Assembly (NCBI RefSeq): GCF_036173045.1
Contig: NZ_CP108040.1
Location: 1 to 64,000, forward strand
DNA: 64,000 nucleotides
Reading direction: 5' to 3'
DNA from: Streptomyces sp. NBC_00299
Lineage (GTDB): Bacteria; Actinomycetota; Actinomycetes; Streptomycetales; Streptomycetaceae
The notes beneath the pieces were generated by a model, which did not search any database, had not been told where the DNA came from, and was given only the letters and a program-made list of their open reading frames with translations. Position 1 is the first letter of the stretch; the number at the start of each line of letters is the position of its first letter. Below, one piece after another: positions 8,518 to 51,985 of this stretch. Both the position numbers and the translations under genes were made by a program.

Positions 8518-10307
8518 GTGGCGTCTCCGTCTTCAGCGGTCTGTGCGGTTGGGCCAGGCGGGCCGTCGGCGGCCGGTTCGGCGGGGAGGGGAGCAGGCCG
8601 GCCGGGCGCGGTCCGGGTGGCGAGGGAGGGCGGGGTGCGCCAGTCGGCCGGTGGCGCGGCGGGCGGGATGAGGTCCGGCAGCGCCAGCTTCGAGGCGTCG
8701 GTGTGCTCGATGGCGGCCAGTTCGTGCCCGGCTTGAGCGGAGGTGAGAGCTCCCAGCCGTTGGGCCGGCCCGGCCGTGGTGGCCGGGGCGAAGCGCTGTC
8801 GGCGCAGCGTCTCGGCGGCCTTCACCTCGGCACGCAGACGTCGGGCACGCTCCGCACGGGCTGTGCGCAGGGCATCGAGTTGTTCGGGGGTGGCCGCGTC
8901 CGCGAGGTGCGCGGGCCCGAGATAACCGCCGCTCGCGCCACAGATGTCGATCTCGTGATCGTGGTGTGGCATGTAGCGCACCGTGACGGTACGGCCGGCC
9001 TGTCCGGTCATCCAGGGGGCGATGTAGGCGCGCCCGCGCCACCGCACACCGTGGCTGGTCAGCTTCCGCGGACGGCCGTCGTCCTCCAGGGTGAACGTCC
9101 ACAAGTCGGCGGCAGGGACGTCCGTGACGGGAGTCGGATCAGCCTGCCATGCCTCAAGCGGCGTACGGCCAGACAGCGCCTTGGGACGGTGCTCGGTGTT
9201 CCACCAGTGGGTCCAGGCCAGCACCTGCGCGGTGAAGTCCTGAAACGACATGGCACCGGAAGTCTCCGGCCTGCGGCCCGCGCCTTTACGCCGGCCGGAG
9301 CGGGGCTTGGTGAGGGTGAGGCTGTAGCCGGGCAGGGCCGCGAACAGCATCCGGTCAACCGCTCTGTTGAGGTTTTCCACCGTGCCCTTGAGATAGGGGC
9401 TGTAAGCGGGAAGATCCTTCACCGTCACGCCCATCGTGCCGAACGCGGTGGTGACGGTGGTCGACAGGAAGTCCTTGCCCCGGTCCACCCGCACCTGCTC
9501 CGGTGTCCCTCCCGCGGGGCCGTAGGGCTCCTCACGCAGCACAGCGGCGCGCAGCGCGGCCAGCACGGAGGCACGGGAAGGAACGCCAGGGGTGACCGCG
9601 GTGCCGGTGATGACTTTGGTAGCGGTGTCGATGAACCAGGTCACCCACGGGCGCACCAGGTCACCGTCGGCATCGACCAGCAGCGGTGCCTGGACATGAT
9701 CGGCCTCCCACACATGATTGCGCCAAGAAGCCGGACGCTTGCCGAAGACGTCATGCGCGCGGGCCGCATCCGGTCCCGTCGCAAGACCGGCCCGCTCCCC
9801 CGCGGTGAGATCACGACGCACCGCGCGCAGGAACGTCGACAACGACGGCACCGGGTCCAGCAACGGCACCGCAGCCGGCGGGGCGCCCGCGGGAGAAGCC
9901 GCGGAGTCAGACGCCGCCGTCGGCTGCTCTTCACGGCCGCCGGTCCGGGCCCGGGCCACCAACTGGCGGTGGACCGCTGAAGCGTTGCCGTGCCAGTACG
10001 CCAGCAGCACCCGGATCTCCCTGGTGACCTCGAACCGGTCACCGCTGCGTTCCCCGGGGCGGATCGCGGCCCGGGGCGACCGGGAGGCCTCAGCCAACCA
10101 CCGCCACACCGTCCGCTCCGACACCCCCAGGCACTCCCCGGCCAGGCGCACATGCTCCCGCGACAGCCGCCGCTCGGCGCGCAGCGCCAGCAGACGACGC
10201 ACCGCCGGCGCCCGCAACGCCGTCAGCGACTCCTCCCCCAAAACACCGGCCGGATCCTCCGGCGGCGCCAACCGCTGCCCGTCCACGCCATGCCCCTTCG
10301 TTCTCAT
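8514..10307 (-). CDS. DDE transposase, TnsB/TniA/MuA type
   Basis: The 597-residue protein has the layout of Mu/Tn7-type transposases. An N-terminal helix-turn-helix (REHVRLAGECLGVSERTVWR) is followed by a second DNA-binding part and then an integrase-like core. The core has aspartates in WEADHVQAP and VRVDRGKDFLS and a glutamate in KGTVENLNRAVDR, and a C-terminal barrel region (HGVRWRGRAYIAPW) follows. The ATG start is preceded by GGAAAG; longer frames upstream have no ribosome site. It probably acts with the co-transcribed AAA+ ATPase. An intact triad suggests activity is possible. Confidence 0.85.
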   Translation of the reverse strand: MRTKGHGVDGQRLAPPEDPAGVLGEESLTALRAPAVRRLLALRAERRLSREHVRLAGECLGVSERTVWRWLAEASRSPRAAIRPGERSGDRFEVTREIRVLLAYWHGNASAVHRQLVARARTGGREEQPTAASDSAASPAGAPPAAVPLLDPVPSLSTFLRAVRRDLTAGERAGLATGPDAARAHDVFGKRPASWRNHVWEADHVQAPLLVDADGDLVRPWVTWFIDTATKVITGTAVTPGVPSRASVLAALRAAVLREEPYGPAGGTPEQVRVDRGKDFLSTTVTTAFGTMGVTVKDLPAYSPYLKGTVENLNRAVDRMLFAALPGYSLTLTKPRSGRRKGAGRRPETSGAMSFQDFTAQVLAWTHWWNTEHRPKALSGRTPLEAWQADPTPVTDVPAADLWTFTLEDDGRPRKLTSHGVRWRGRAYIAPWMTGQAGRTVTVRYMPHHDHEIDICGASGGYLGPAHLADAATPEQLDALRTARAERARRLRAEVKAAETLRRQRFAPATTAGPAQRLGALTSAQAGHELAAIEHTDASKLALPDLIPPAAPPADWRTPPSLATRTAPGRPAPLPAEPAADGPPGPTAQTAEDGDAT

Positions 10308-10393
10308 CCGCTTTCCGTGAAGCCCGTCTTCGCTCACTCCGTCAAAACAGGTGAAGGCCCCCCGCACACGAGCCCTCCGAGCAACGCGGACCG

Positions 10394-11779
10394 TCACGGG
10401 TAGGGGCCAAGACGCGCGCAGGCCTGCTCGATCAACTCCCGGTCCACACGCCTTGCGGGGCCACGCTCGCGGGCTGCGTAGACATGCGACGTGATCTTCG
10501 CCCACGTGCGGAAATTGCCGCGCGCCATCTGCTCATCCGCCCGCGCAAGGTCCTCCGGGCTCGCCTGCGCCCACACGGGATGGAACAGGGTCAGCGTCTG
10601 CGGTACTTGAGACGGCTCAAGCCGGCCGACCTTGTGCCAGGTCAGCACGCGCGAGCGCAGCGCCGAAGCACGCGCCAGGGCACGCTCGCTTCCAGCCCCA
10701 CACAGCACCAGCGCCGCCGCACAGCCCGGCGCGTCCCACAACTGCCGCAGATAATCCAGCAATGGCGGCGTCAGCCGCTGGGCGTCATCGAGAAACAGCA
10801 CACCCGGCTCAGCCAGTGCCCGCGTCAGAGCCTGGCTGGCCGGCCCGGCCCGGTGCGGCAGCGCCCCCGACGGCAGCCCGAGCCCTTCACACAGCGAGGC
10901 CCGCAACTGCGGCAGACCGGGCGCCACGCCGGCCACCACCCGCCACACCGGCACCCGGCCGGGCAGAAGATGCAACGCCTGCTCGACAGCGACCGTCTTC
11001 CCCAGGCCCGTATCCCCGTACACACAGCACATCCCGCGGGCCGCGACCGTATGCCCCACAGCCTCCGCCACAGCGGCCACCTGCCGCGTCGACACCAGCC
11101 GGGCCCCCGGCACATACAACCGCACACCGCCGCCCCGCACCCCCGCATCCGCAGCATCCTCCGGCACCGGCACATCGGCGGACGGCCCATCGACAACAAG
11201 CGGACCACCCGCCCCGTCCACGAGCCCCAAATCCGCCAGCGCCCGCTCATACCGGCTCGGCTCCAGCCCCACCCGAGCCCCTGCCGAACGAGCAACTTCA
11301 AGAACCCGGCCCGCCCCCAGATCCCGCTTGATCACCCGGTGCAGCGTCGGCAGCGAGGGCACACACCGCGCACCCCACCCCTCCAACGCCCCCTCTTCCT
11401 GGGCCCGGAGCATCCTGCGCCGCAACTCCGCGACATTCCCGCCCGCCTGAGCGAGGACCTCCCACAAAGCGTCACTCAGCGAAAACCCATCCTGCCGCGG
11501 CCGCGCCTCGACATGCCCCCGACGCCCATCGGCCAGCCACCGCCACACCGTCCGCTCCGACACCCCCGCCAGCTCCGCCGCAATCCGCACATGCAACCGC
11601 GACAGCGTCCCCTCCCCATCCACCGCAAGAAGCCGCCGCACCACCACACCCCGCGCCAACGGCACACCCCCCGCCGACACAACCCCAGCCGACCCCGCCC
11701 GGAGCTCACCCGCCGAAACCCCCTGAACCGTCACACGGCCCAGCCCACCCAACCCCGCCAACCCCTCACACAGGAACAA
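10394..11779 (-). CDS. Transposase DNA-binding domain fused to AAA+ ATPase
   Basis: The 461-residue protein has two parts that each match a different neighbour. Residues about 45-165 match the N-terminus of the transposase next door, including GVSERTVWRWLA and a PSLPTLHRVIKRDL segment. The integrase core is absent. Residues about 225-461 match the TniB-like ATPase: Walker A GDTGLGKT (about 250), Walker B VLFLDDAQRL (about 330), FHPVWAQASPEDL and GNFRTWAKITSH. It could be an in-frame deletion product of an older transposase-ATPase pair, or a purposeful adaptor that binds element ends and recruits the ATPase. The TTG start at 11779 has no clear ribosome site; GTG at 11734 is an alternative. Confidence 0.8.
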   Translation of the reverse strand: MFLCEGLAGLGGLGRVTVQGVSAGELRAGSAGVVSAGGVPLARGVVVRRLLAVDGEGTLSRLHVRIAAELAGVSERTVWRWLADGRRGHVEARPRQDGFSLSDALWEVLAQAGGNVAELRRRMLRAQEEGALEGWGARCVPSLPTLHRVIKRDLGAGRVLEVARSAGARVGLEPSRYERALADLGLVDGAGGPLVVDGPSADVPVPEDAADAGVRGGGVRLYVPGARLVSTRQVAAVAEAVGHTVAARGMCCVYGDTGLGKTVAVEQALHLLPGRVPVWRVVAGVAPGLPQLRASLCEGLGLPSGALPHRAGPASQALTRALAEPGVLFLDDAQRLTPPLLDYLRQLWDAPGCAAALVLCGAGSERALARASALRSRVLTWHKVGRLEPSQVPQTLTLFHPVWAQASPEDLARADEQMARGNFRTWAKITSHVYAARERGPARRVDRELIEQACARLGPYP

Positions 11780-11945
11780 CGAAACCCATGACAGCCAGCA
11801 ACCAACCTGCTAGCCACACCACAACAGCCGCTTAGTCACCCCATGACAGCGACCACAACCCCACCCCACACCCCCTACCAGGACACCCACATCACCAACC
11901 CACTGACGCCCACCACTGCCACCCCAACGCCCAATCACACTCTGG
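11780..11945. other. C-rich transposon flank
   Basis: Plus-strand C-rich DNA without a gene. CATGACAGC occurs at 11787 and 11842. This is a possible place for the right end of the transposon, but no matching left end was found. Confidence 0.3.
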
Positions 11946-12659
11946 ATGGACCTGGCCGTGGCCGCGATGCGCCTGCCGCCCGGCGTGATCCTGGACGGCG
12001 AGGCCGTGGTGTACCTCGCCTCCGACGACGGCACCGTGCACATCAGCTTCGCCGCGGCGCAGTCCCGCGCGCTGTCCCGCCCCCGCCACGCGAGAGAGCT
12101 CGCCGACCAACACCCGGCGACGTACGTGGCGTTCAACCTCCTGGCCCATCCTGCGGCGGGCTTCGCTGACCTGCGGCCGCGCCCGTACGTGGAGCGCCGC
12201 CAGGTCCTCCTGGACCTCCTCGCCGACGTTGGGCCGCCGATCGTGCCGGTGTGGTCGACCACGGACCTGGACGAGGCCCTGCTCTGGTACGAGACGCTCG
12301 AAGGCACCGGCGTTGAGGGGATCGTGGCCAAGCCGCTCAGGTCGGCCTACAAGACGGGCCGGGTCTGGGCGAAGGTGAGGCACGCGGACACAGTCGACGC
12401 CACCGTGGTCGGCTTCACCGCACGGCCCGCCATCCGAAGGCCCTTGCCGTACGGCTGCCCGACGGACGGGTGGCGCTGTCCCAGCGGCTTACCACGGCGC
12501 TCGCATCTGCCGTCGGCCCGGGCCTGGTCCCCGAGACCGGGCGGGCGTTCGCGAAGGCCGGCGACTCCCTCCTACACGCCCGCCATCGGCGACGTGATGG
12601 TGGAGGTCGTGGCGGGCACAACCCGGCACGCCGTCGTCACGGTGATGCGGCTGCGCTGA
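11946..12659 (+). pseudogene. ATP-dependent DNA ligase remnant
   Basis: This is the middle and end of an ATP-dependent DNA ligase of the LigC/LigD type. Motifs III/IIIa (ILDGEAVVYL), IV (GVEGIVAKP) and V (GRVWAKVRHAD) are visible. The N-terminal part with the catalytic lysine motif KxDG is absent, because homology starts abruptly next to the transposon flank. After VDATVVGFT the frame shifts, passes through the 12470-12580 frame (RVALSQRLTTAL), and returns for the usual C-terminal ending VVAGTTRHAVVTVMRLR. Two frameshifts plus the 5-prime truncation make it non-functional. A second broken copy lies at 30359-30646. Confidence 0.85.
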
Positions 12660-45589: not shown

Positions 45590-45910
45590 TCAGACCAGGC
45601 CGTTCCACTCGCAGCCCGCCCCCGGGTCGCACTGCCAGCCTCGAGAGTCCCCCTCTTCCGAGAACGCCGGGTCGCCAACATCAGTACCGAAGTTGTAGGC
45701 GGGAGGAGGTTCACCGACCAGGTAGCCGGTCTTCTCTCCCTTTCCGTCCGGCGGGGTTTGTGAGGGGGGCGCGGGGGCGGCGTGTTCACGAGCCTTTGTA
45801 TAGAAGGCTCTCCCGTTGGAGTAGGTATATACAGCTATGATCTCTGTGTAGGGCTGGTAGAAGCCCGTTCGTCGCTCGACGGCGCCTTGAACTGGCAAGT
45901 TCAGTTGCAT
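45590..45910 (-). CDS. Small protein of the peptide locus
   Basis: A 106-residue protein starting MQLNLPVQGAVERRTGFYQP, with GGAGG 11 nt upstream of the chosen ATG. A tyrosine-rich middle (TEIIAVYTYSNGRAFYTKAR) is followed by a proline-rich linker and the end GWQCDPGAGCEWNGLV with two cysteines. It is the last gene after the four tandem peptide genes on the same strand, 115 nt from the nearest one. It has no membrane segment. It could be another secreted peptide, an immunity factor or a modification partner; I cannot decide. Confidence 0.55.
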   Translation of the reverse strand: MQLNLPVQGAVERRTGFYQPYTEIIAVYTYSNGRAFYTKAREHAAPAPPSQTPPDGKGEKTGYLVGEPPPAYNFGTDVGDPAFSEEGDSRGWQCDPGAGCEWNGLV

Positions 45911-46024
45911 CGTTCTTCGCATCCTCCGGTTGAGAGGACCAGGTCCCCGGAACATCCCGGCTCTGCGCGGGTATTGGTCCGGGCGACGATGTCGGACTGG
46001 CACCGTCGCCCGGTACGGACGCGG

Positions 46025-46204
46025 CTAGAAGAGCAGGCTCCCGAGTGCCCCGAGGAGGGGCAGGAAGTTCGCTTCGACGCCGGAAGGGTCGTTGTCTGCT
46101 CCTGTGGGCCTGGCCGACGTGCGGTCGACCGGCGGCACCTGCTGCGGCATCTGCAGGGAAACAAACACCGGACGGGACTCATCTCGCGTGGTCGGTTCAT
46201 TCAT
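46025..46204 (-). CDS. Cyanobactin-like precursor peptide 1
   Basis: A 59-residue gene with ribosome site AAGGGAG before the ATG. It shares the leader MNEPTTRDESRPVFVSLQMP and MPQQVPPVDRTSARPTG with the next three genes, and diverges after it: ADNDPSGVEA then the hydrophobic tail NFLPLLGALGSLLF. GVEA corresponds to the recognition sequence II, G(L/V)E(A/P)S, which precedes the core in cyanobactin precursors. The predicted core is therefore 13-14 residues and has no cysteine, serine/threonine-rich pattern or C-terminal recognition sequence. Confidence 0.75.
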   Translation of the reverse strand: MNEPTTRDESRPVFVSLQMPQQVPPVDRTSARPTGADNDPSGVEANFLPLLGALGSLLF

Positions 46205-46279
46205 CGCGCTCTCCCTTCATACCTCTCAGCTAGCGAGGCCTAGGCGGCAGACGCAAAGCGCTGCCGCCGACAAGCAGCC

Positions 46280-46465
46280 TCAGCCGAACAGGCTGCCGAT
46301 CCCCTTGGCCAGCAGATTGATCAGGCCGTTGGCCTCGACGCCGGATTGGTCGCTGTGTGCTCCTGTGGGCCTGGCCGACGTGCGGTCGACCGGCGGCACC
46401 TGCTGCGGCATCTGCAGGGAAACAAACACCGGACGGGACTCATCTCGCGTGGTCGGTTCATTCAT
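46280..46465 (-). CDS. Cyanobactin-like precursor peptide 2
   Basis: A 61-residue gene with the same leader and ribosome site as peptide 1. After AHSDQSGVEA comes the amphipathic tail NGLINLLAKGIGSLFG. The leader part is nearly identical at base level to the neighbouring copies, while the tail differs, the usual sign of core diversification by gene duplication. Confidence 0.78.
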   Translation of the reverse strand: MNEPTTRDESRPVFVSLQMPQQVPPVDRTSARPTGAHSDQSGVEANGLINLLAKGIGSLFG

Positions 46466-46540
46466 CGCGCTCTCCCTTCATACCTCTCAGCTAGCGAGGC
46501 CTAGGCGGCAGACGCAAAGCGCTGCCGCCGACAAGCAGCC

Positions 46541-46738
46541 TCAGCCGAACAGCCCGCCGATACCCCTGGCGATCTTCGGGCCCCATTCATCGAGGAAGCC
46601 GTTGGCCTCGACGCCGGATTGGTCGCTGTGTGCTCCTGTGGGCCTGGCCGACGTGCGGTCGACCGGCGGCACCTGCTGCGGCATCTGCAGGGAAACAAAC
46701 ACCGGACGGGACTCATCTCGCGTGGTCGGTTCATTCAT
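46541..46738 (-). CDS. Cyanobactin-like precursor peptide 3
   Basis: A 65-residue gene, leader as in peptides 1 and 2. The tail after GVEA is NGFLDEWGPKIARGIGGLFG, longer and more charged. The IG(S/G)LFG ending is shared with peptide 2, so this end may matter for processing or activity. Confidence 0.78.
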   Translation of the reverse strand: MNEPTTRDESRPVFVSLQMPQQVPPVDRTSARPTGAHSDQSGVEANGFLDEWGPKIARGIGGLFG

Positions 46739-46813
46739 CGCGCTCTCCCTTCATACCTCTCAGCTAGCGAGGCCTAGGCGGCAGACGCAAAGCGCTGCCG
46801 CCGACAAGCAGCC

Positions 46814-47011
46814 TCAGCCGAACAGCCCGCCGATACCCCTGGCGATCTTCGGGCCCCATTCATCGAGGAAGCCGTTGGCCTCGACGCCGGATTGGTCGCT
46901 GTGTGCTCCTGTGGGCCTGGCCGACGTGCGGTCGACCGGCGGCACCTGCTGCGGCATCTGCAGGGAAACAAACACCGGACGGGACTCATCTCGCGTGGTC
47001 GGTTCATTCAT
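46814..47011 (-). CDS. Cyanobactin-like precursor peptide 4
   Basis: A 65-residue gene identical in protein sequence to peptide 3 and encoded in a 273-nt unit that appears identical at base level, so this duplication is very recent or homogenised. Its upstream region differs after GAAGGGAGAGCGCG, marking the end of the tandem array nearest to the protease gene. Confidence 0.78.
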   Translation of the reverse strand: MNEPTTRDESRPVFVSLQMPQQVPPVDRTSARPTGAHSDQSGVEANGFLDEWGPKIARGIGGLFG

Positions 47012-47093
47012 CGCGCTCTCCCTTCATAATTTGCCGTTCTCGCGGCTGGGCGTTCTTGCCCTCAGCGTTGGCATGTGGCCGCAGTGCTTTGTT

Positions 47094-47285
47094 TCAGACC
47101 TTGGTGCTGCGCATCGCGTAGCACAGTTGGCGAGCGGCGCCGGGCAGGTCTGCGCAGCCTGAGGCAGCAGCATCGACGCCGCTGTCGGTGCCTCGGCCCG
47201 CTGAGACTGGTGCGTTGTCCCTGTACACGGGTGGTGCCTGGACGGGTGCGGCGAGCTTGGGCAGTTTTTCTTGGTGGGGGCTCAT
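47094..47285 (-). CDS. Diverged cysteine-containing peptide of the locus
   Basis: A 63-residue gene with GAAGGAAG before the ATG, between the protease gene and the tandem array. Its leader (KLPKLAAPVQAPPVYRDNAP, GTDSGVDA) has the same layout as the tandem peptides, with PPV and a GVDA in place of GVEA. The tail AASGCADLPGAARQLCYAM has two cysteines and could form a disulfide or thioether ring. It may be a fifth precursor with another fate. Its start is 26 nt beyond the protease stop, so the genes are probably co-transcribed. Confidence 0.65.
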   Translation of the reverse strand: MSPHQEKLPKLAAPVQAPPVYRDNAPVSAGRGTDSGVDAAASGCADLPGAARQLCYAMRSTKV

Positions 47286-47311
47286 GGTCTGCTTCCTTCT
47301 TCGTGTTGTGC

Positions 47312-49801
47312 TCACATGCCGCCAATGAACTTGTGGGCAGGCCCGATGGGGATGGGGAGCGGCAGCGCTACGTCGAACGTGAGCAGGTAGGTCACGCGGG
47401 CGCGCCGCTCGTTCTCGGGGTCGAAGAATGTGAGGTAGACGTCCTGGCAATCCGATCCTCCAGGGCGGCAGAAGGTGCTCTTGGCGACCTTGATGGATTC
47501 CAGGGCGTAGAAGTTGTCGTCCTTGCCGGGAACGTGCTTCGCCGACAGGAGACCGTCCTTGAGCTCGCTTCCCACCAAGAATGCGTTCGTTCCTGCCGCA
47601 TTCATTGCCCGGTCGGCAGAGGTCTGCCCAAGGTTGCGGAACCTCCAGTAAGCCATGTCGAGGAGGGCTCGGATGGTTGTCTTGAGCGTGTCGATCTTGC
47701 CTTCGTCGAGCTCGACCGGCGGCTTCCTCTTCTTGTACTCCTGCTTGACGGCCTCGATTACTGCCTGGACCAGGACGGCTTCGTTCCAGGTGTAGAGGCC
47801 GCGGCTTTGGACCTCGACTACAGGTAGGTTCTCCCCTTGAAAGGTCCGGGCTGTGCGATCCGTCAGCACTCCGGGGATCGACACCCGCGAGACGTAGTTC
47901 GGATCGTTCTCCCCCAGTGTCTGTCCGACGATGGCGTCCCGGAAGGTTCTGTAGACCGGAGACACAGGTGGATAGGACAGAACTTCCACAAACTCAGCGA
48001 GCTTGTTGGTGTTCCCTGCTGTTTCGGTCGCTGCCTCGCTGATTTCAGCCGCCGAGGCCTTGGGATTCGTGATGAGCGGCCGATCCCAGTCCATGCCCAC
48101 GGCCGGCTCTGCCTCAAGAGCGTAAAGATTGGTGGCGTCAGCCTTCAGCGTCCAGATCAGGTGACGAGACTCCGTCGGGTACTTCGACAGATAGGCCCGC
48201 ATCTGCGCAGGGTCGTAGATGTTCGGCTGGACTTCCTTCTCCGGGCCGCCTGCTGGATCCGTGATTACCACGTTGGGCATCAGCTGACGGAAGCTGTCCC
48301 GGCGGGCCTCGGTGCCGAAGTCGTATCCGATCGTGCCGATGGCGTAAATCACCTGCTGGTGCGCACCGTTCCCGTTTCCCCCGCACTGACACCCCGAAGT
48401 GCTCCCGCCGCACCCGCACGACGGGCGGACACCGGCCGTCGGCTCATTCACGCTGAAGCTGGCCGACGCGGGAGGTGCTGCCGCTGCAACCCCGTAGCTC
48501 CCACTAGAGACTTCCTGGCTGCCTGCAGCATGCGAGGCTGGCGCGCGGTGGCTTCCCTCGTTCTGTTCTGAGGCGCTCGCTTCCACGAGTAGGGCATCGT
48601 TGGTGTCGCCAGCCTCTGCTGCGGGTGGAGTGGGTTCCGGCTGCTGCGGCTCTTCTTGGGCGGGCGGGGACGGAGCTTCCAGCGCCGCCTCTGTCGTCCT
48701 GCCTGCCTCGGGAGCTCCCTCGTTCGGAGCGAAGTGCGCGGCATTCGTGTCCATGGTGGTGGGCCTCTCGTCCGATGCAGAGTGGGGTATGGGGAGCGAC
48801 GGGCGCTCGCCGGCGGCGTTGACGCCGACTCCGGAAGTGACGGCGTCATGCCGCCGTGTCAAGAAGGCTGTCGGCCGGGTCTGGGACTCAGCGGCCAGAG
48901 CCTGATCGTTTGTGGGCGTGCTCGGTCGCGTGATCATTTGGTGGGCGCGCGCGACGTCGAGTTGGCCAGCCAAGTGTCTGCGGCACTCGTAGTCGTCAGG
49001 AGAGGAGCAGGGGGGGTCGCTAGCGGTCCGGAGGATGGCTCTGCCGGCCGCGAGTGGGTCGGCCTTGTCTCCGTGCCGGAGCTGCTCTGCCATCAGCAGT
49101 GCGGCCACCCCGGAGACCACAGGAGTGGCGAAGCTGCTGCCGGTCAGGGCCATCAGCCCCCCGCCGGGCGCAGCGCCCTCGATAGCCTGTCCGGGTGCAA
49201 GTACCCCGTTCTCGCGGTAGGCGATGCCCCAGTTGTTGGCCTCCATTGGTGCACCGTTGATGTCTGCAGCGCCGACAGCCAGTACTGACGGCGCCGCGGC
49301 GGGGGCTTGCAGGCAGTCACACCCGTCGTTGCCGACCGCCGCGACGACGAGCACCCCGCGGTCCTCACACATCCGCAGCGCTCGGTCCAGCATGCTCTCG
49401 GCTTGGCCGTCTGCCGAGCGCTCTCCCCCGCTGATATTGATGACATGGGCCCCTTCGTCCATGGCCCGCTCTACAGCGCGCGCCAGATCGAGCTGGGGCA
49501 CACGCCCCTCCCGTCCGTCCTGGAAGATGGGGAGGATGAGCCCGCGGCATCGGGGCGCGAGGCCGACGGCACTGCTTTCCAGCTGTCCGAAGAGAAGGCT
49601 CGCCACGTGGGTGCCGTGCAATGACATCGCCCCTCGTCCCGCGGGGTCCCGGACCAGTGTGTCGATCCGCTTGACGTCGGCGCCCTCGAAGCAGGGGTGG
49701 GTCAGGTCCACAGGGCCGTCGAGTACGGCGATACACACGTCGGGATCGCCGAGCATCTCCCCCGGCGCGGGGAGGTCACGAAGGATGGACCGGACTTTCA
49801 T
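47312..49801 (-). CDS. PatA/PatG-type subtilisin protease
   Basis: An 829-residue protein. Residues 1-300 are an S8 subtilisin domain with the complete triad: Asp28 in IAVLDGPVD, His65 in LHGTHVASLL, Ser223 in TGSSFATPVVSG, plus Asn158 in AAVGND for the oxyanion hole. There is no signal peptide. After an acidic proline-rich linker comes a cysteine cluster (CGCGGSTSGCQC, about 459-474) and then a domain of about 340 residues beginning YAIGTIGYDFGTEARRDS. This I recall from PatA/PatG-type cyanobactin maturation proteases. It should cut the precursors at GVEA. Whether it also cyclises them is open. AAGGAG lies upstream of the ATG. Confidence 0.8.
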   Translation of the reverse strand: MKVRSILRDLPAPGEMLGDPDVCIAVLDGPVDLTHPCFEGADVKRIDTLVRDPAGRGAMSLHGTHVASLLFGQLESSAVGLAPRCRGLILPIFQDGREGRVPQLDLARAVERAMDEGAHVINISGGERSADGQAESMLDRALRMCEDRGVLVVAAVGNDGCDCLQAPAAAPSVLAVGAADINGAPMEANNWGIAYRENGVLAPGQAIEGAAPGGGLMALTGSSFATPVVSGVAALLMAEQLRHGDKADPLAAGRAILRTASDPPCSSPDDYECRRHLAGQLDVARAHQMITRPSTPTNDQALAAESQTRPTAFLTRRHDAVTSGVGVNAAGERPSLPIPHSASDERPTTMDTNAAHFAPNEGAPEAGRTTEAALEAPSPPAQEEPQQPEPTPPAAEAGDTNDALLVEASASEQNEGSHRAPASHAAGSQEVSSGSYGVAAAAPPASASFSVNEPTAGVRPSCGCGGSTSGCQCGGNGNGAHQQVIYAIGTIGYDFGTEARRDSFRQLMPNVVITDPAGGPEKEVQPNIYDPAQMRAYLSKYPTESRHLIWTLKADATNLYALEAEPAVGMDWDRPLITNPKASAAEISEAATETAGNTNKLAEFVEVLSYPPVSPVYRTFRDAIVGQTLGENDPNYVSRVSIPGVLTDRTARTFQGENLPVVEVQSRGLYTWNEAVLVQAVIEAVKQEYKKRKPPVELDEGKIDTLKTTIRALLDMAYWRFRNLGQTSADRAMNAAGTNAFLVGSELKDGLLSAKHVPGKDDNFYALESIKVAKSTFCRPGGSDCQDVYLTFFDPENERRARVTYLLTFDVALPLPIPIGPAHKFIGGM

Positions 49802-50176
49802 ATACGCCGCCCTCTCCTTGTGGGTGAGCCAACGAGCCGTCGGTCAGAGCTTTCACCGGGCCCGTTATGACAGCGTTCTCAGCTTCGTCGGGGATGCGTT
49901 GCGGGAGTGTCCTTTCGATCTGTTTGGGCTGGTCAAGATGCTCATCGACCCCACCAAATTCCGTGACCGCACAGGCGCGCCGGGCGGATGTGTGATGGTG
50001 CCCGATCCGACCGCCGACGTCCGCTGCTGGGCGAACTGGGCTAGGACTACCGGCCACCCTTTGGAGGGGTGGGAAGCTTTGCAGCCCGACAAGCAGCCGG
50101 CCCGCCGAGCGCAGCACAGACGCACGACGGCGCAACTACGCGGCAGGCCGCAGGCCCCGCCCGTTCGACTGAGGCC
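49802..50176. other. Intergenic region with possible gene fragment
   Basis: On the plus strand, about 49835-50060, a frame reads like protein (SFHRARYDSVLSFVGDALRE, DLFGLVKMLIDPTKFRDRTG) but without its own start. It may be a relic of a lost gene. The region should also hold the promoter of the protease-peptide operon on the minus strand; no clear boxes were found. Confidence 0.35.
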
Positions 50177-50890
50177 CTACATGGGCATCAAGTCACGCAC
50201 CAGGCGGGCCATCTGAGGTGATGGCGAAACGTTCAGCTCTCGCTGCAGGAAGGACTGGTAGTCCAGGTATCGCTTGATCGCACTGGCGATGTTGCCTTCT
50301 GCTATGTGCACCTCTATGACTATGCGGTGCGCAGTCTCCCGAATGGGATCGACTGCGATAGCTGCCAGCGCTGCTTGGAGAGCGGGTAGGTACTGGCCTG
50401 CGGCTTGGAACTGCTGAGCCAAGCCCTCAAGTGCGTAAACCCTCGTCTGGTTCCAGCGCTCTCGCTCCAGGTCCAGCCAGTTGTCCGTCCAGCCCGGCAA
50501 CAATTCCCGACTCAAATCCCCCACGAGCTCCTCCCAGCCATGGGACATCTGGCCGGATCCGGCGATGATCTGGCGGGCGGCCCCCGAAACCGCGTGTAGA
50601 TCCACCTTGACGGCTGGCGACAGCATGAGACGCTGGCCCACACTGTCGATCACCGTGACAGATCCCACCCGGCGGCCGTAGCACAGAGCACATCGCAGGT
50701 TCGCCGCAGCCCGGAAGGTCGTGCAATCGGGCCACAACTGCTCGGCGGCGGAAGACCGGTGCACATCGTCGTTCTGCAGCGCGAGAAATGCCAGCAGCCG
50801 CTGCGCTCCCAACGGGATGCAGATCCTCTTGCTGGCATGGGTGAACTCGAAGGGTCTCAAGATTTCGAGGCGCGCACCATTCCATGACAC
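50177..50890 (-). CDS. SARP-family transcriptional activator
   Basis: A 237-residue regulator. The N-terminal winged helix (LEILRPFEFTHASKRICIPL, QRLLAFLALQNDDVHRSSAA) is of the OmpR-like SARP type. Residues about 95-237 form the BTAD domain (DLHAVSGAARQIIAGSG, YALEGLAQQFQAAGQYLPAL, AIKRYLDYQSFLQRELNVSP). GTG 50890 was chosen because GGGGTGT precedes it and the SARP pattern starts there. SARPs switch on antibiotic and peptide clusters in Streptomyces. It lies upstream of, and in line with, the protease and peptide genes and is the likely activator. Targets are expected to carry direct heptamer repeats. Confidence 0.8.
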   Translation of the reverse strand: MSWNGARLEILRPFEFTHASKRICIPLGAQRLLAFLALQNDDVHRSSAAEQLWPDCTTFRAAANLRCALCYGRRVGSVTVIDSVGQRLMLSPAVKVDLHAVSGAARQIIAGSGQMSHGWEELVGDLSRELLPGWTDNWLDLERERWNQTRVYALEGLAQQFQAAGQYLPALQAALAAIAVDPIRETAHRIVIEVHIAEGNIASAIKRYLDYQSFLQRELNVSPSPQMARLVRDLMPM

Positions 50891-51202
50891 ACACCCCACT
50901 TTGCAACCGGCACGTGCCAAGCGCACCTGCTACACACCCCACACGGACTACTAGGAACCCTCTCTGGCCTGCTGCAATGCGCGGGCGATGAGCCAGAAAC
51001 GCTTGAGAGACATGTGGCTAACGATCACGACAACGACGATGGAACGCTCGTGAGGCAACCTCAAGGCATGTCGCCAGGCCGGGAGTATGTCCGATGCGTC
51101 GCTGACGGTCGCTGCCCAGCAATCTCGGATTGTCCTGTGAGCCCCGTCCTCGCTTCTGGCCCCGGCCCTGCTGCCTGCAACCCAGTTGGAACGGAGACGA
51201 GC

Positions 51203-51985
51203 ATGGCTCTCGTGCCTCGGAACATCTCCCAAGCGGAGGCCCGCGAGGTCATCGACGCGTTCGTTGCCGAACGGCTGATCAAACTGGAGTCGCCCTCCTC
51301 CACCACAGGACGCATCAATCTCGATGGGTGGAATCCCGTCACGCTGGAGAATGAGCCCGGAAATGTCGCAGGAGTCATCGTGCGGTACTGGCCCACCGGC
51401 AAGAAGGGAACGGAGAGCCAAATCAGTACCGGATCGGCTCCGGACCGGCTTGACCCACGCAACGCCATGGCGTTCGTACTCATGTGCCAGATGCTGAACA
51501 CTGCCTGGGGGGTTACAGAGTTGTACCACGCAGGCATCAGCGGGGACCGTCCTGGAGGCCGAAATGACTGCCACGGGCAAGGCCGTGCCGTCGACTTCGT
51601 AGGGGCTCGGGGAAATCTGTTCGGAGCCGATGTGTACTTCACCGTCTTCGATGACTGGGGCAGGATCCACGTGCCAGGGCTCACCACCGCCGGCGGCGAC
51701 TGGCCCGCCGGGACCGGCGGGAACACCAGCTACCGGCTCCTTGCTGACGGGGCCCCCGACACAGCTGCCTGGCAGTTCTTCCTCGAGCTCTATCACTTCG
51801 CGGCGACGAACTACCAGGACCGCACGGACGGCCTGGAGGACGCCAGCGATCCCACCGACATAGGCAAGAAGAGCAGATTCATCATGCATCCCGACCATCC
51901 CAAGTCGGCTCCCGGAACCCTGCATGGCCGGGAAGCCCACAAAGGTCATATCCACATGCAGATCGGCCGCACCGGTAGCGCATAG
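51203..51985 (+). CDS. M15-like metallopeptidase-fold protein
   Basis: A 260-residue protein. NDCHGQGRAVDFVGARG (histidine and aspartate seven residues apart) and KGHIHMQIGR near the C-terminus recall the zinc-binding H-x6-D and H-x-H motifs of M15 peptidases (VanY/DD-carboxypeptidase and DUF882 relatives). There is no signal peptide. The ATG at 51203 follows GGAGACGAGC; the longer frame upstream lacks a ribosome site. It is divergent from the SARP gene and may belong to the peptide locus, for example as a second processing peptidase, but this is inference. Confidence 0.6.
   Translation: MALVPRNISQAEAREVIDAFVAERLIKLESPSSTTGRINLDGWNPVTLENEPGNVAGVIVRYWPTGKKGTESQISTGSAPDRLDPRNAMAFVLMCQMLNTAWGVTELYHAGISGDRPGGRNDCHGQGRAVDFVGARGNLFGADVYFTVFDDWGRIHVPGLTTAGGDWPAGTGGNTSYRLLADGAPDTAAWQFFLELYHFAATNYQDRTDGLEDASDPTDIGKKSRFIMHPDHPKSAPGTLHGREAHKGHIHMQIGRTGSA

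Follow-up and report, generated by a model that had tools for sequence, protein, structure and literature searches.

What does a cyanobactin-type protease do in a Streptomyces operon with no visible cyanobactin tailoring enzyme, and what becomes of the small peptides encoded behind it? The operon lies in the window, by which we mean the whole stretch analysed: the first 64 kb of the 222,614-bp second contig of Streptomyces sp. NBC_00299 (genome of 9.73 Mb, two contigs). This contig is taken for a plasmid because ParA- and ParB-like open reading frames (ORFs) can be recognised by eye at 53-55 kb of the window. The operon occupies 49801 to 45590 of the minus strand and consists, in reading order, of the protease, five small leader peptides and one further small gene (Table 1). 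We consider it likely that the locus is an offshoot of the cyanobactin systems that does without heterocyclase and macrocyclase, its PatA-type protease releasing linear helical peptides as a set that is probably active on membranes.

The protease

Is the enzyme really of the PatA type? Against TIGR03895 it scores 545 bits (cut-off 421), the sole protein of the whole genome above that cut-off, and in Pfam it matches Peptidase_S8, PatG_D and PatG_C above threshold. A preliminary description of this DNA had reported an intact S8 triad and a PatA/PatG-type domain; both stand, and the profile search it proposed as a check places the C-terminal domain with the PatG profiles. The triad D28, H62 and S223 is intact together with N158, and these residues are identical in 20 of 20 aligned proteases, window included. 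A subtilase domain (residues 1-292) is joined by a linker predicted to be disordered (293-480) to the PatG_D/PatG_C domain (481-829); the AlphaFold model (mean predicted local distance difference test, pLDDT, 63.7 overall) shows the two folded domains and gives the linker very low confidence. No signal peptide was seen by eye.

Among solved structures, PatA-type proteases come closest to the catalytic domain (4h6v 310, 3zxx 309 and 4h6w 303 bits), and the PatG macrocyclase 4h6x scores lower, at 155 bits; the C-terminus matches the domain structure 4uvq with 144 bits. With the PatA domains the alignment is colinear and its gaps are small; with 4h6x it falls into two parts, and residues 66-91 of that chain stay uncovered. 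These residues may be read as the macrocyclisation insert, which would then have no counterpart in the protease; the accessible part of PMC4663559 describes the existence of such an insert but not its place. Could a partner enzyme supply the macrocyclase? No second PatA/PatG protease, and hence no PatG-like macrocyclase, exceeds the TIGR03895 cut-off in the whole genome. As a separate observation, the linker (window 48362-48925) holds GVNAAGE and AGVRPSCGCGG, which resemble the precursor cut motif; cut-like motifs also occur in the linkers of several related proteases and are perhaps self-cleavage sites.

The precursor peptides

Behind the protease, as the preliminary description had it, four tandem ORFs (47011 to 46025, minus strand) have a common leader ending in GVEA and differ in their tails. 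The leader measures 45 residues up to GVEA, not the 35 given earlier. Its DNA is identical at 135 of 135 positions among three tandem copies and at 129 of 135 (six differences) in the fourth, start-to-start spacings are 261, 273 and 273 bp, and the same Shine-Dalgarno-like GGGAGAG precedes each ATG. The tails do vary, although not in all four as had been claimed: E1 and E2, the two protease-proximal copies, encode identical peptides, so that there are three distinct tails. Because the leader DNA is identical or nearly so while the tails vary in length and sequence, a recent duplication in which tails were replaced would be one plausible origin, gene conversion among the leaders another.

A fifth leader peptide, Precursor A, lies directly 3' of the protease and reads SGVDAA followed by a two-Cys tail. 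The earlier count of four precursors therefore holds for the tandem genes, to which Precursor A and the PatB-like gene at 45590-45910 have to be added. Throughout the window precursors the cut-type tetrad is GVEA or GVDA, followed by N or A, which agrees with the cyanobactin-type motif G(L/V)E(A/P) expected before the core; G(L/V)E(A/P)S is the published consensus for the PatA cut (PMC10885120, in the part available). No C-terminal recognition sequence of the AYDG/FAGDDAE type is present in the window precursors, whose tails end at the stop codon, and a search of the four distinct window precursors against NCBIfam and Pfam, curated cyanobactin precursor models included, gave nothing at E<=1.

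Recurrence in other genomes

Does this pairing of leader and protease occur elsewhere? A tblastn search with one precursor alone returned four records, all Streptomyces and two of them S. xanthophaeus; the three plasmid loci found with the protease as query are all among these four. Genome contigs scanned with the C-terminal domain yielded 23 loci. After removal of four duplicates (L012, L059, L062 and L063, on the same contigs as L064, L023, L034 and L031), 39 loci were compared. Over their 6,636 ORFs, a leader profile has 110 matches at E<0.01 in 32 loci, 108 of them on the protease strand. The profile was built from 21 seed segments (one, W1, with one mistyped letter) of 11 loci, where matches arise by construction; 21 of the 32 matched loci are unseeded. 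Seven loci have no leader match: L013 (a true cyanobactin cluster), L015, L039 (contig end), L064 (decayed), L065 and L066 (two-protease loci) and L067 (fragment). The 32 leader-bearing loci comprise 29 from actinobacteria, window included, one from a Terriglobia metagenome-assembled genome (MAG, L036) and two on cyanobacterial plasmids (L014, L016), so that protease and leader peptides stand together in 28 actinobacterial loci besides the window. All 29 carry a type A peptide, the counterpart of Precursor A (27 by pattern, diverged copies in L020 and L057 by inspection), and 27 carry type C, the small gene that ends the operon. A tree of 20 proteases has a 100/100 branch with its 13 sequences of actinobacterial leader loci on one side and, on the other, three cyanobacterial rows, three from two-protease Streptomyces loci and the Terriglobia row.

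Within the genus, the C-terminal domain was found in 12 of 295 sampled Streptomyces genomes. Leader peptides accompany it in nine, including the decayed copy G062/L064; the other three are G112 and G127, of the two-protease type, and G214, a fragment. In the same 295 genomes the precursor profile matched 11 at E<=0.001, of which nine have the protease. The preliminary description would have been contradicted by leaders in genomes lacking such a protease; at E<=1e-4 all nine of nine matched genomes have it. The two that lack it, G117 and G204, have a single weak match apiece, with E-values of 5e-4 and 8e-4 and reading frames 121 and 1785 residues long. The hypergeometric probability of nine protease-bearing genomes among 11 with leaders, given 12 in 295, is 3e-13, species not being independent. 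Two variants of the arrangement deserve mention. L010 has two extra precursors at 9305-9955 (minus strand), about 4 kb from its protease and on the opposite strand to it, one ending DFLPLLPIVASAAGGLLGKLFG. G233 carries the locus twice (C1:11940-12944 and C1:7071157-7072161), about 12 kb and 6 kb from the contig ends and in opposite orientation, which might be explained by the terminal inverted repeats of a linear chromosome.

Leader motifs and the predicted cut site

Which parts of the leader are kept? In 26 aligned precursors the best columns, beside the start Met, are P20, Q22, P25-V26 and R28, then G42-V-E-A45; information is thus highest at PxQxPPVxR and GVEA, and a single gappy tail column (Gly) reaches 3.3 bits. 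The first of these elements matches the cyanobactin peptide NILPQQGQPVIR, printed in the accessible part of PMC5108345. It appears as PNLAPPVTR in precursors of the Streptomyces two-protease loci, and in ORFs beside cyanobacterial proteases as LPVQAAPVQR (L014) and LPIQSKPIFR (L016), where it stands before a GIKPS/GITPS variant of the second element. It is also N-terminal in all three TIGR04220 PatB proteins of the set, those of L013, L065 and L066.

What would bind it? The C-terminal protease domain is an attractive candidate, because domain and element both persist where other cyanobactin enzymes are not seen. Against this weighs the nuclear magnetic resonance (NMR) work reported in the accessible part of PMC4259220, in which the PatG domain binds neither unmodified nor heterocyclised PatE' and a calorimetry curve is ascribed to aggregation; the PatA-type domain lay outside the scope of that study. 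The available part of PMC5108345 suspects the same peptide of binding an oxidase, but without density for it.

Where would the leader be cut? The residue after the GVEA-type tetrad was counted in 77 helical-type precursors (those without the two-Cys pattern, the Cys-rich cyanobacterial ones also being set apart beforehand) and is D in 28, S in 23, N in 20, A in five and T in one. Two of the 77 (L010 9305-9559 and L058 11051-11242) are visibly mis-split, and 12 of the 110 leader ORFs are excluded from the count for want of a recognised cut motif; these include three type C ORFs as well as those of L014 and L016, with their Cys-rich tails. Because this fifth residue is D, S, N, A or T, the cut, predicted by homology, likely falls one residue later than the position directly after GVEA assumed in the preliminary description. 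Cleavage after GVEA-N would likely release FLPLLGALGSLLF, GLINLLAKGIGSLFG and GFLDEWGPKIARGIGGLFG.

The tails

Helical-type tails, counted from the residue after GVEA, are 10-38 residues long (median 17; 14-20 in the window). Are they amphipathic, as had been proposed? Over 73 distinct helical-type cores the mean maximal hydrophobic moment at 100 degrees is 0.477, against 0.327 (standard deviation 0.011) for shuffled cores, and none of 300 shuffles reaches the observed value, which bears the proposal out. Of eight angles 100 degrees is the highest, with 90 and 110 nearly equal. Cysteine is absent from all 1,460 residues of these tails, in part by construction because the helical type is defined as lacking the two-Cys pattern. 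One tail type, F-[LF]-P-[LM]-[LI], recurs in the window and in L009, L010, L017, L028, L030 and L031.

Is each locus a random library of tails? Between related strains, reciprocal best slots share 63% of their core residues and 73% of their leader residues, and the ratio of nonsynonymous to synonymous polymorphism (pN/pS) is 0.77 in the core and 0.59 in the leader; pairing slots by best match favours similarity somewhat. Different slots within one locus are 27% identical in the core and 63% in the leader. A locus therefore encodes a set of different, largely kept peptides and not a random library, and the preliminary description, which had counted conservation like that of ordinary protein against itself, meets such conservation in part. 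In some groups (L027, L032, L033, L038) the core is conserved much more weakly in one slot.

Neighbouring genes

What else accompanies the protease? The families kept around it are the SARP, the small genes and a variable hydrolase slot. The type C profile, built from 10 of its 27 loci, matches in 27 of the 39 loci at E<1e-3. Over all 6,636 ORFs the first protein outside the family is the annotated PatB of L013 (E=0.036; hhalign probability 44%), and three type C proteins scanned have no match to TIGR04220 (PatB). Type C ends with a two-Cys motif and would best be described as resembling PatB. No PatC match was found among the small window proteins scanned; that type A might be PatC was considered and rejected, the PatC of L013 looking different.

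In the window the SARP-type regulator lies 5' of the protease and in the same direction, as described earlier, but this placing does not hold in general: the family is clustered in 22 of the 39 loci and is on the opposite strand to the operon in 20 of these 22. The putative metallohydrolase at 51203-51985, divergent from the operon, has conserved DCHxQGRAxD and HIHMQ and is related to domains fused to hemopexin repeats elsewhere. Other occupants of its slot include hemopexin repeats with the window's domain, an M35 protease, a trypsin-like protease and an Rv2525c-like hydrolase. It may be an M15-like peptidase, going by its residue signatures; it has no Pfam match of note, its model is poor (mean pLDDT 51.2) and finds no PDB match in Foldseek at E<=0.001, and the convincing PDB matches of the family profile are to hemopexin-type chains only.

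No tailoring enzyme was seen nearby among the families searched, as first described: neither YcaO nor radical SAM proteins have a match on the 222,614-bp replicon. The prenyltransferase model TIGR04445 has no match in 13 records, in a search without a working positive control.

Table 1. Features of the locus, with positions in the window.
Feature	Position	Strand	Support
PatA-type S8 protease, 829 aa	47312..49801	-	TIGR03895, Pfam, PDB relatives, AlphaFold model m489109cab43f, triad D28/H62/S223
Precursor A: leader LAAPVQAPPVYR, SGVDA, two-Cys tail AASGCADLPGAARQLCYAMRSTKV (conserved type)	47094..47285	-	leader profile
Precursor E1, tail N then GFLDEWGPKIARGIGGLFG	46814..47011	-	leader profile
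Precursor E2, protein identical to E1	46541..46738	-	leader profile
Precursor E3, tail N then GLINLLAKGIGSLFG	46280..46465	-	leader profile
Precursor E4, tail N then FLPLLGALGSLLF	46025..46204	-	leader profile
Type C, PatB-like small protein, start MQLNLPVQGAVERR, end DSRGWQCDPGAGCEWNGLV, GGAGG 5' of chosen ATG	45590..45910	-	type C profile
SARP-type regulator, BTAD domain, start codon uncertain	50177..50926	-	PF03704 E=4e-14
Putative metallohydrolase, HxxGRAxD and HxH residues, hydrolase-slot member; system membership uncertain	51203..51985	+	neighbour clustering

Interpretation

How might these parts work together? The operon, probably switched on by the SARP, encodes five leader peptides, a PatB-like protein and a PatA-type protease that would work in the cytoplasm. 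PxQxPPVxR would serve for recognition of the leaders, which would then be cut after G(V/L/I)(E/D)(A/P)-[NDSA], at the position of the cyanobactin leader cut. In the window strain the products would be three different short amphipathic alpha-helices and one two-Cys peptide, most likely linear and with free ends because there is no follower sequence and no adjoining macrocyclase. The conservation of every slot's own sequence from strain to strain suggests that the peptides work together, probably as a multi-component membrane-active set that may be bacteriocin-like or surfactant-like.

Several observations weigh against this account. The tails have a net charge of -2 to +2, most often 0 or -1, unlike cationic antimicrobial peptides, and no transporter or immunity gene was identified in a non-exhaustive scan of the neighbour genes. 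The motifs are not universal either: the putative precursor of the cyanobactin cluster L013 has no clear PxQxPPVxR, no ORF of L015 has an element of this type by pattern, and the helical precursors of L021, L023, L024, L025, L034 and L060 have GGAAA-, GGAGA-, DGAAA- or GVAA-type sites instead of GVEA. It is also possible that a tailoring or cyclising enzyme is encoded elsewhere in the genome.

This last point leads to the question of whether the peptides are linear at all. They could be cyclised head to tail or otherwise tailored, if the PatA-like protease transamidates or an enzyme from elsewhere modifies the cores: PatG and its orthologues are transamidating relatives (PMC10885120, as far as available), and the chromosome contig of the same genome holds all the YcaO (three) and radical SAM (20) matches. 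We regard this as rather unlikely, given a protease with no sign of a macrocyclase insert, precursors with no C-terminal recognition tail and helical cores without Cys. YcaO is moreover absent from all three plasmid records (host chromosomes outside the search) and from four of 24 locus-carrying genomes (incomplete assemblies possible), and in the seven genomes for which both positions are available, YcaO and the locus lie either on separate contigs or over 700 kb apart. Of the two product forms in the preliminary description, linear is thus favoured over cyclised, and of its two chemistries protease-only fits better, evidence for a new chemistry being absent. Might the helical peptides be pheromones instead, sensed within the species and perhaps controlling the plasmid? 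The adjoining SARP, the plasmid location here and in three records, and the short hydrophobic peptides without strong charge would all suit signalling molecules; several different peptides per locus and an amphipathic design better suit a membrane-active set, no receptor was identified, though no search aimed at one was made, and a signalling role seems not very probable.

In a self-directed toxin or defence module, infection or stress would activate the protease, which would set membrane-disrupting peptides free within the producer. An enzyme without a visible signal peptide, the absence of a visible exporter and the accessory distribution (12 of 295 genomes) would fit such a module. It appears quite improbable: for five window proteins, a PADLOC scan found nothing beyond a weak similarity to IetS over 40 residues of the subtilase core (E=8e-5), and the SARP suggests developmental or antibiotic-type control. 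The leader families could also be ordinary small proteins whose likeness to cyanobactin leaders is convergent, as the slot-by-slot conservation of the tails and the lack of matches to curated precursor families might suggest. Convergence would, however, have to account for two separate cyanobactin leader elements that stand next to the expected protease and in the expected order, both in one Terriglobia MAG and in 29 loci of actinobacteria, and for the first element before a GIKPS/GITPS variant in two cyanobacterial loci; we consider it highly unlikely.

Could the motif have a wider meaning than leader recognition in this locus? A more speculative proposal, which we put forward tentatively and would not bet on, is that PxQxPPVxR is a general client tag of PatA/PatG-type proteases, with PatB and the two-Cys peptide A as clients or partners and not enzymes. 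Protease-only loci would then show the core machine (protease, tag and PatB-like partner), either the base on which cyanobactin chemistry was built or what was left after its loss, and this machine would here make a co-acting set of helical peptides. If true, this would give a role to the leader N-terminus, to PatB and to a domain of unknown function. Protease-only loci isolate the roles of two features that they retain, the motif in the N-terminal part of the leader and the conserved C-terminal domain, because the macrocyclase and, as far as searched, the heterocyclase are gone. The tails are short, on present evidence unmodified, and within synthetic reach, so that their activity is directly testable.

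Comparison with known systems

Has such an operon been described? No description of this operon was found in the open subset of PubMed Central (PMC), subscription papers not being covered. In its accessible part, a 2015 review (PMC4663559) states that cyanobactin clusters had been identified only in cyanobacteria and that active ones always have two proteases; PMC10145562, as far as available, mentions cyanobactin homologues in a Saccharopolyspora. In S. scabies, the available part of PMC7369419 places a PatG C-terminal-domain homologue (region of SCAB_66631) beside four short peptides; homology is reported to the PatG C-terminal domain only.

The Streptomyces two-protease loci L065 and L066 resemble the window locus in their leader, which has NLAPPVTR; they encode a PatB (TIGR04220 above cut-off), and both L065 proteases pass the TIGR03895 cut-off. 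They differ in having two proteases, a separate branch of the protease tree and precursors ending in PFAGDDAE, which we take to be a macrocyclase-type tail. These precursors (genomes G112 and G127) resemble the anacyclamide/piricyclamide family, below its cut-off. The cyanobacterial plasmids carry leader ORFs with Cys-rich tails after GIKPS/GITPS (L014 9873-10178, L016 9423-9614) behind single PatA/PatG proteases whose 8-kb surroundings have no annotated YcaO, and are perhaps another protease-only branch; the Nostoc protease of L016 (7917-9293) lacks the subtilase part bearing the catalytic Ser, being truncated or misassembled. In L013, the protein at 10035-12434 has two methyltransferase-like parts (by eye) fused to a PatG-type C-terminal domain, with no protease domain.

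As for the products, multi-peptide bacteriocins and temporin- or phenol-soluble modulin (PSM)-like peptides are sets of short amphipathic helices that the window peptides may resemble, made with different leaders and proteases.

How close, then, is the locus to the cyanobactins of the patellamide/anacyclamide type? It has in common with them a PatA-type protease with the PatA/PatG C-terminal domain, the leader motif PxQxxPVxR, a cut signature in which G(V/L)E(A/P) precedes a small residue, more than one precursor in each locus and perhaps, in its PatB-like small gene, a PatB. The LAELSEEAL-type element that we presume for cyanobactin leaders was not seen in these leaders, for which no LAELSEEAL profile search was made. 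The window locus differs in having no PatG macrocyclase, no C-terminal recognition sequence and no heterocyclase in sight, and loci of its type differ in their helical Cys-free tails, actinobacterial hosts and probable SARP regulation. With neither macrocyclase nor C-terminal signal it fails the definition of a cyanobactin locus. What stands alone here is the leader-cutting half of the cyanobactin pathway, with products of a different kind.

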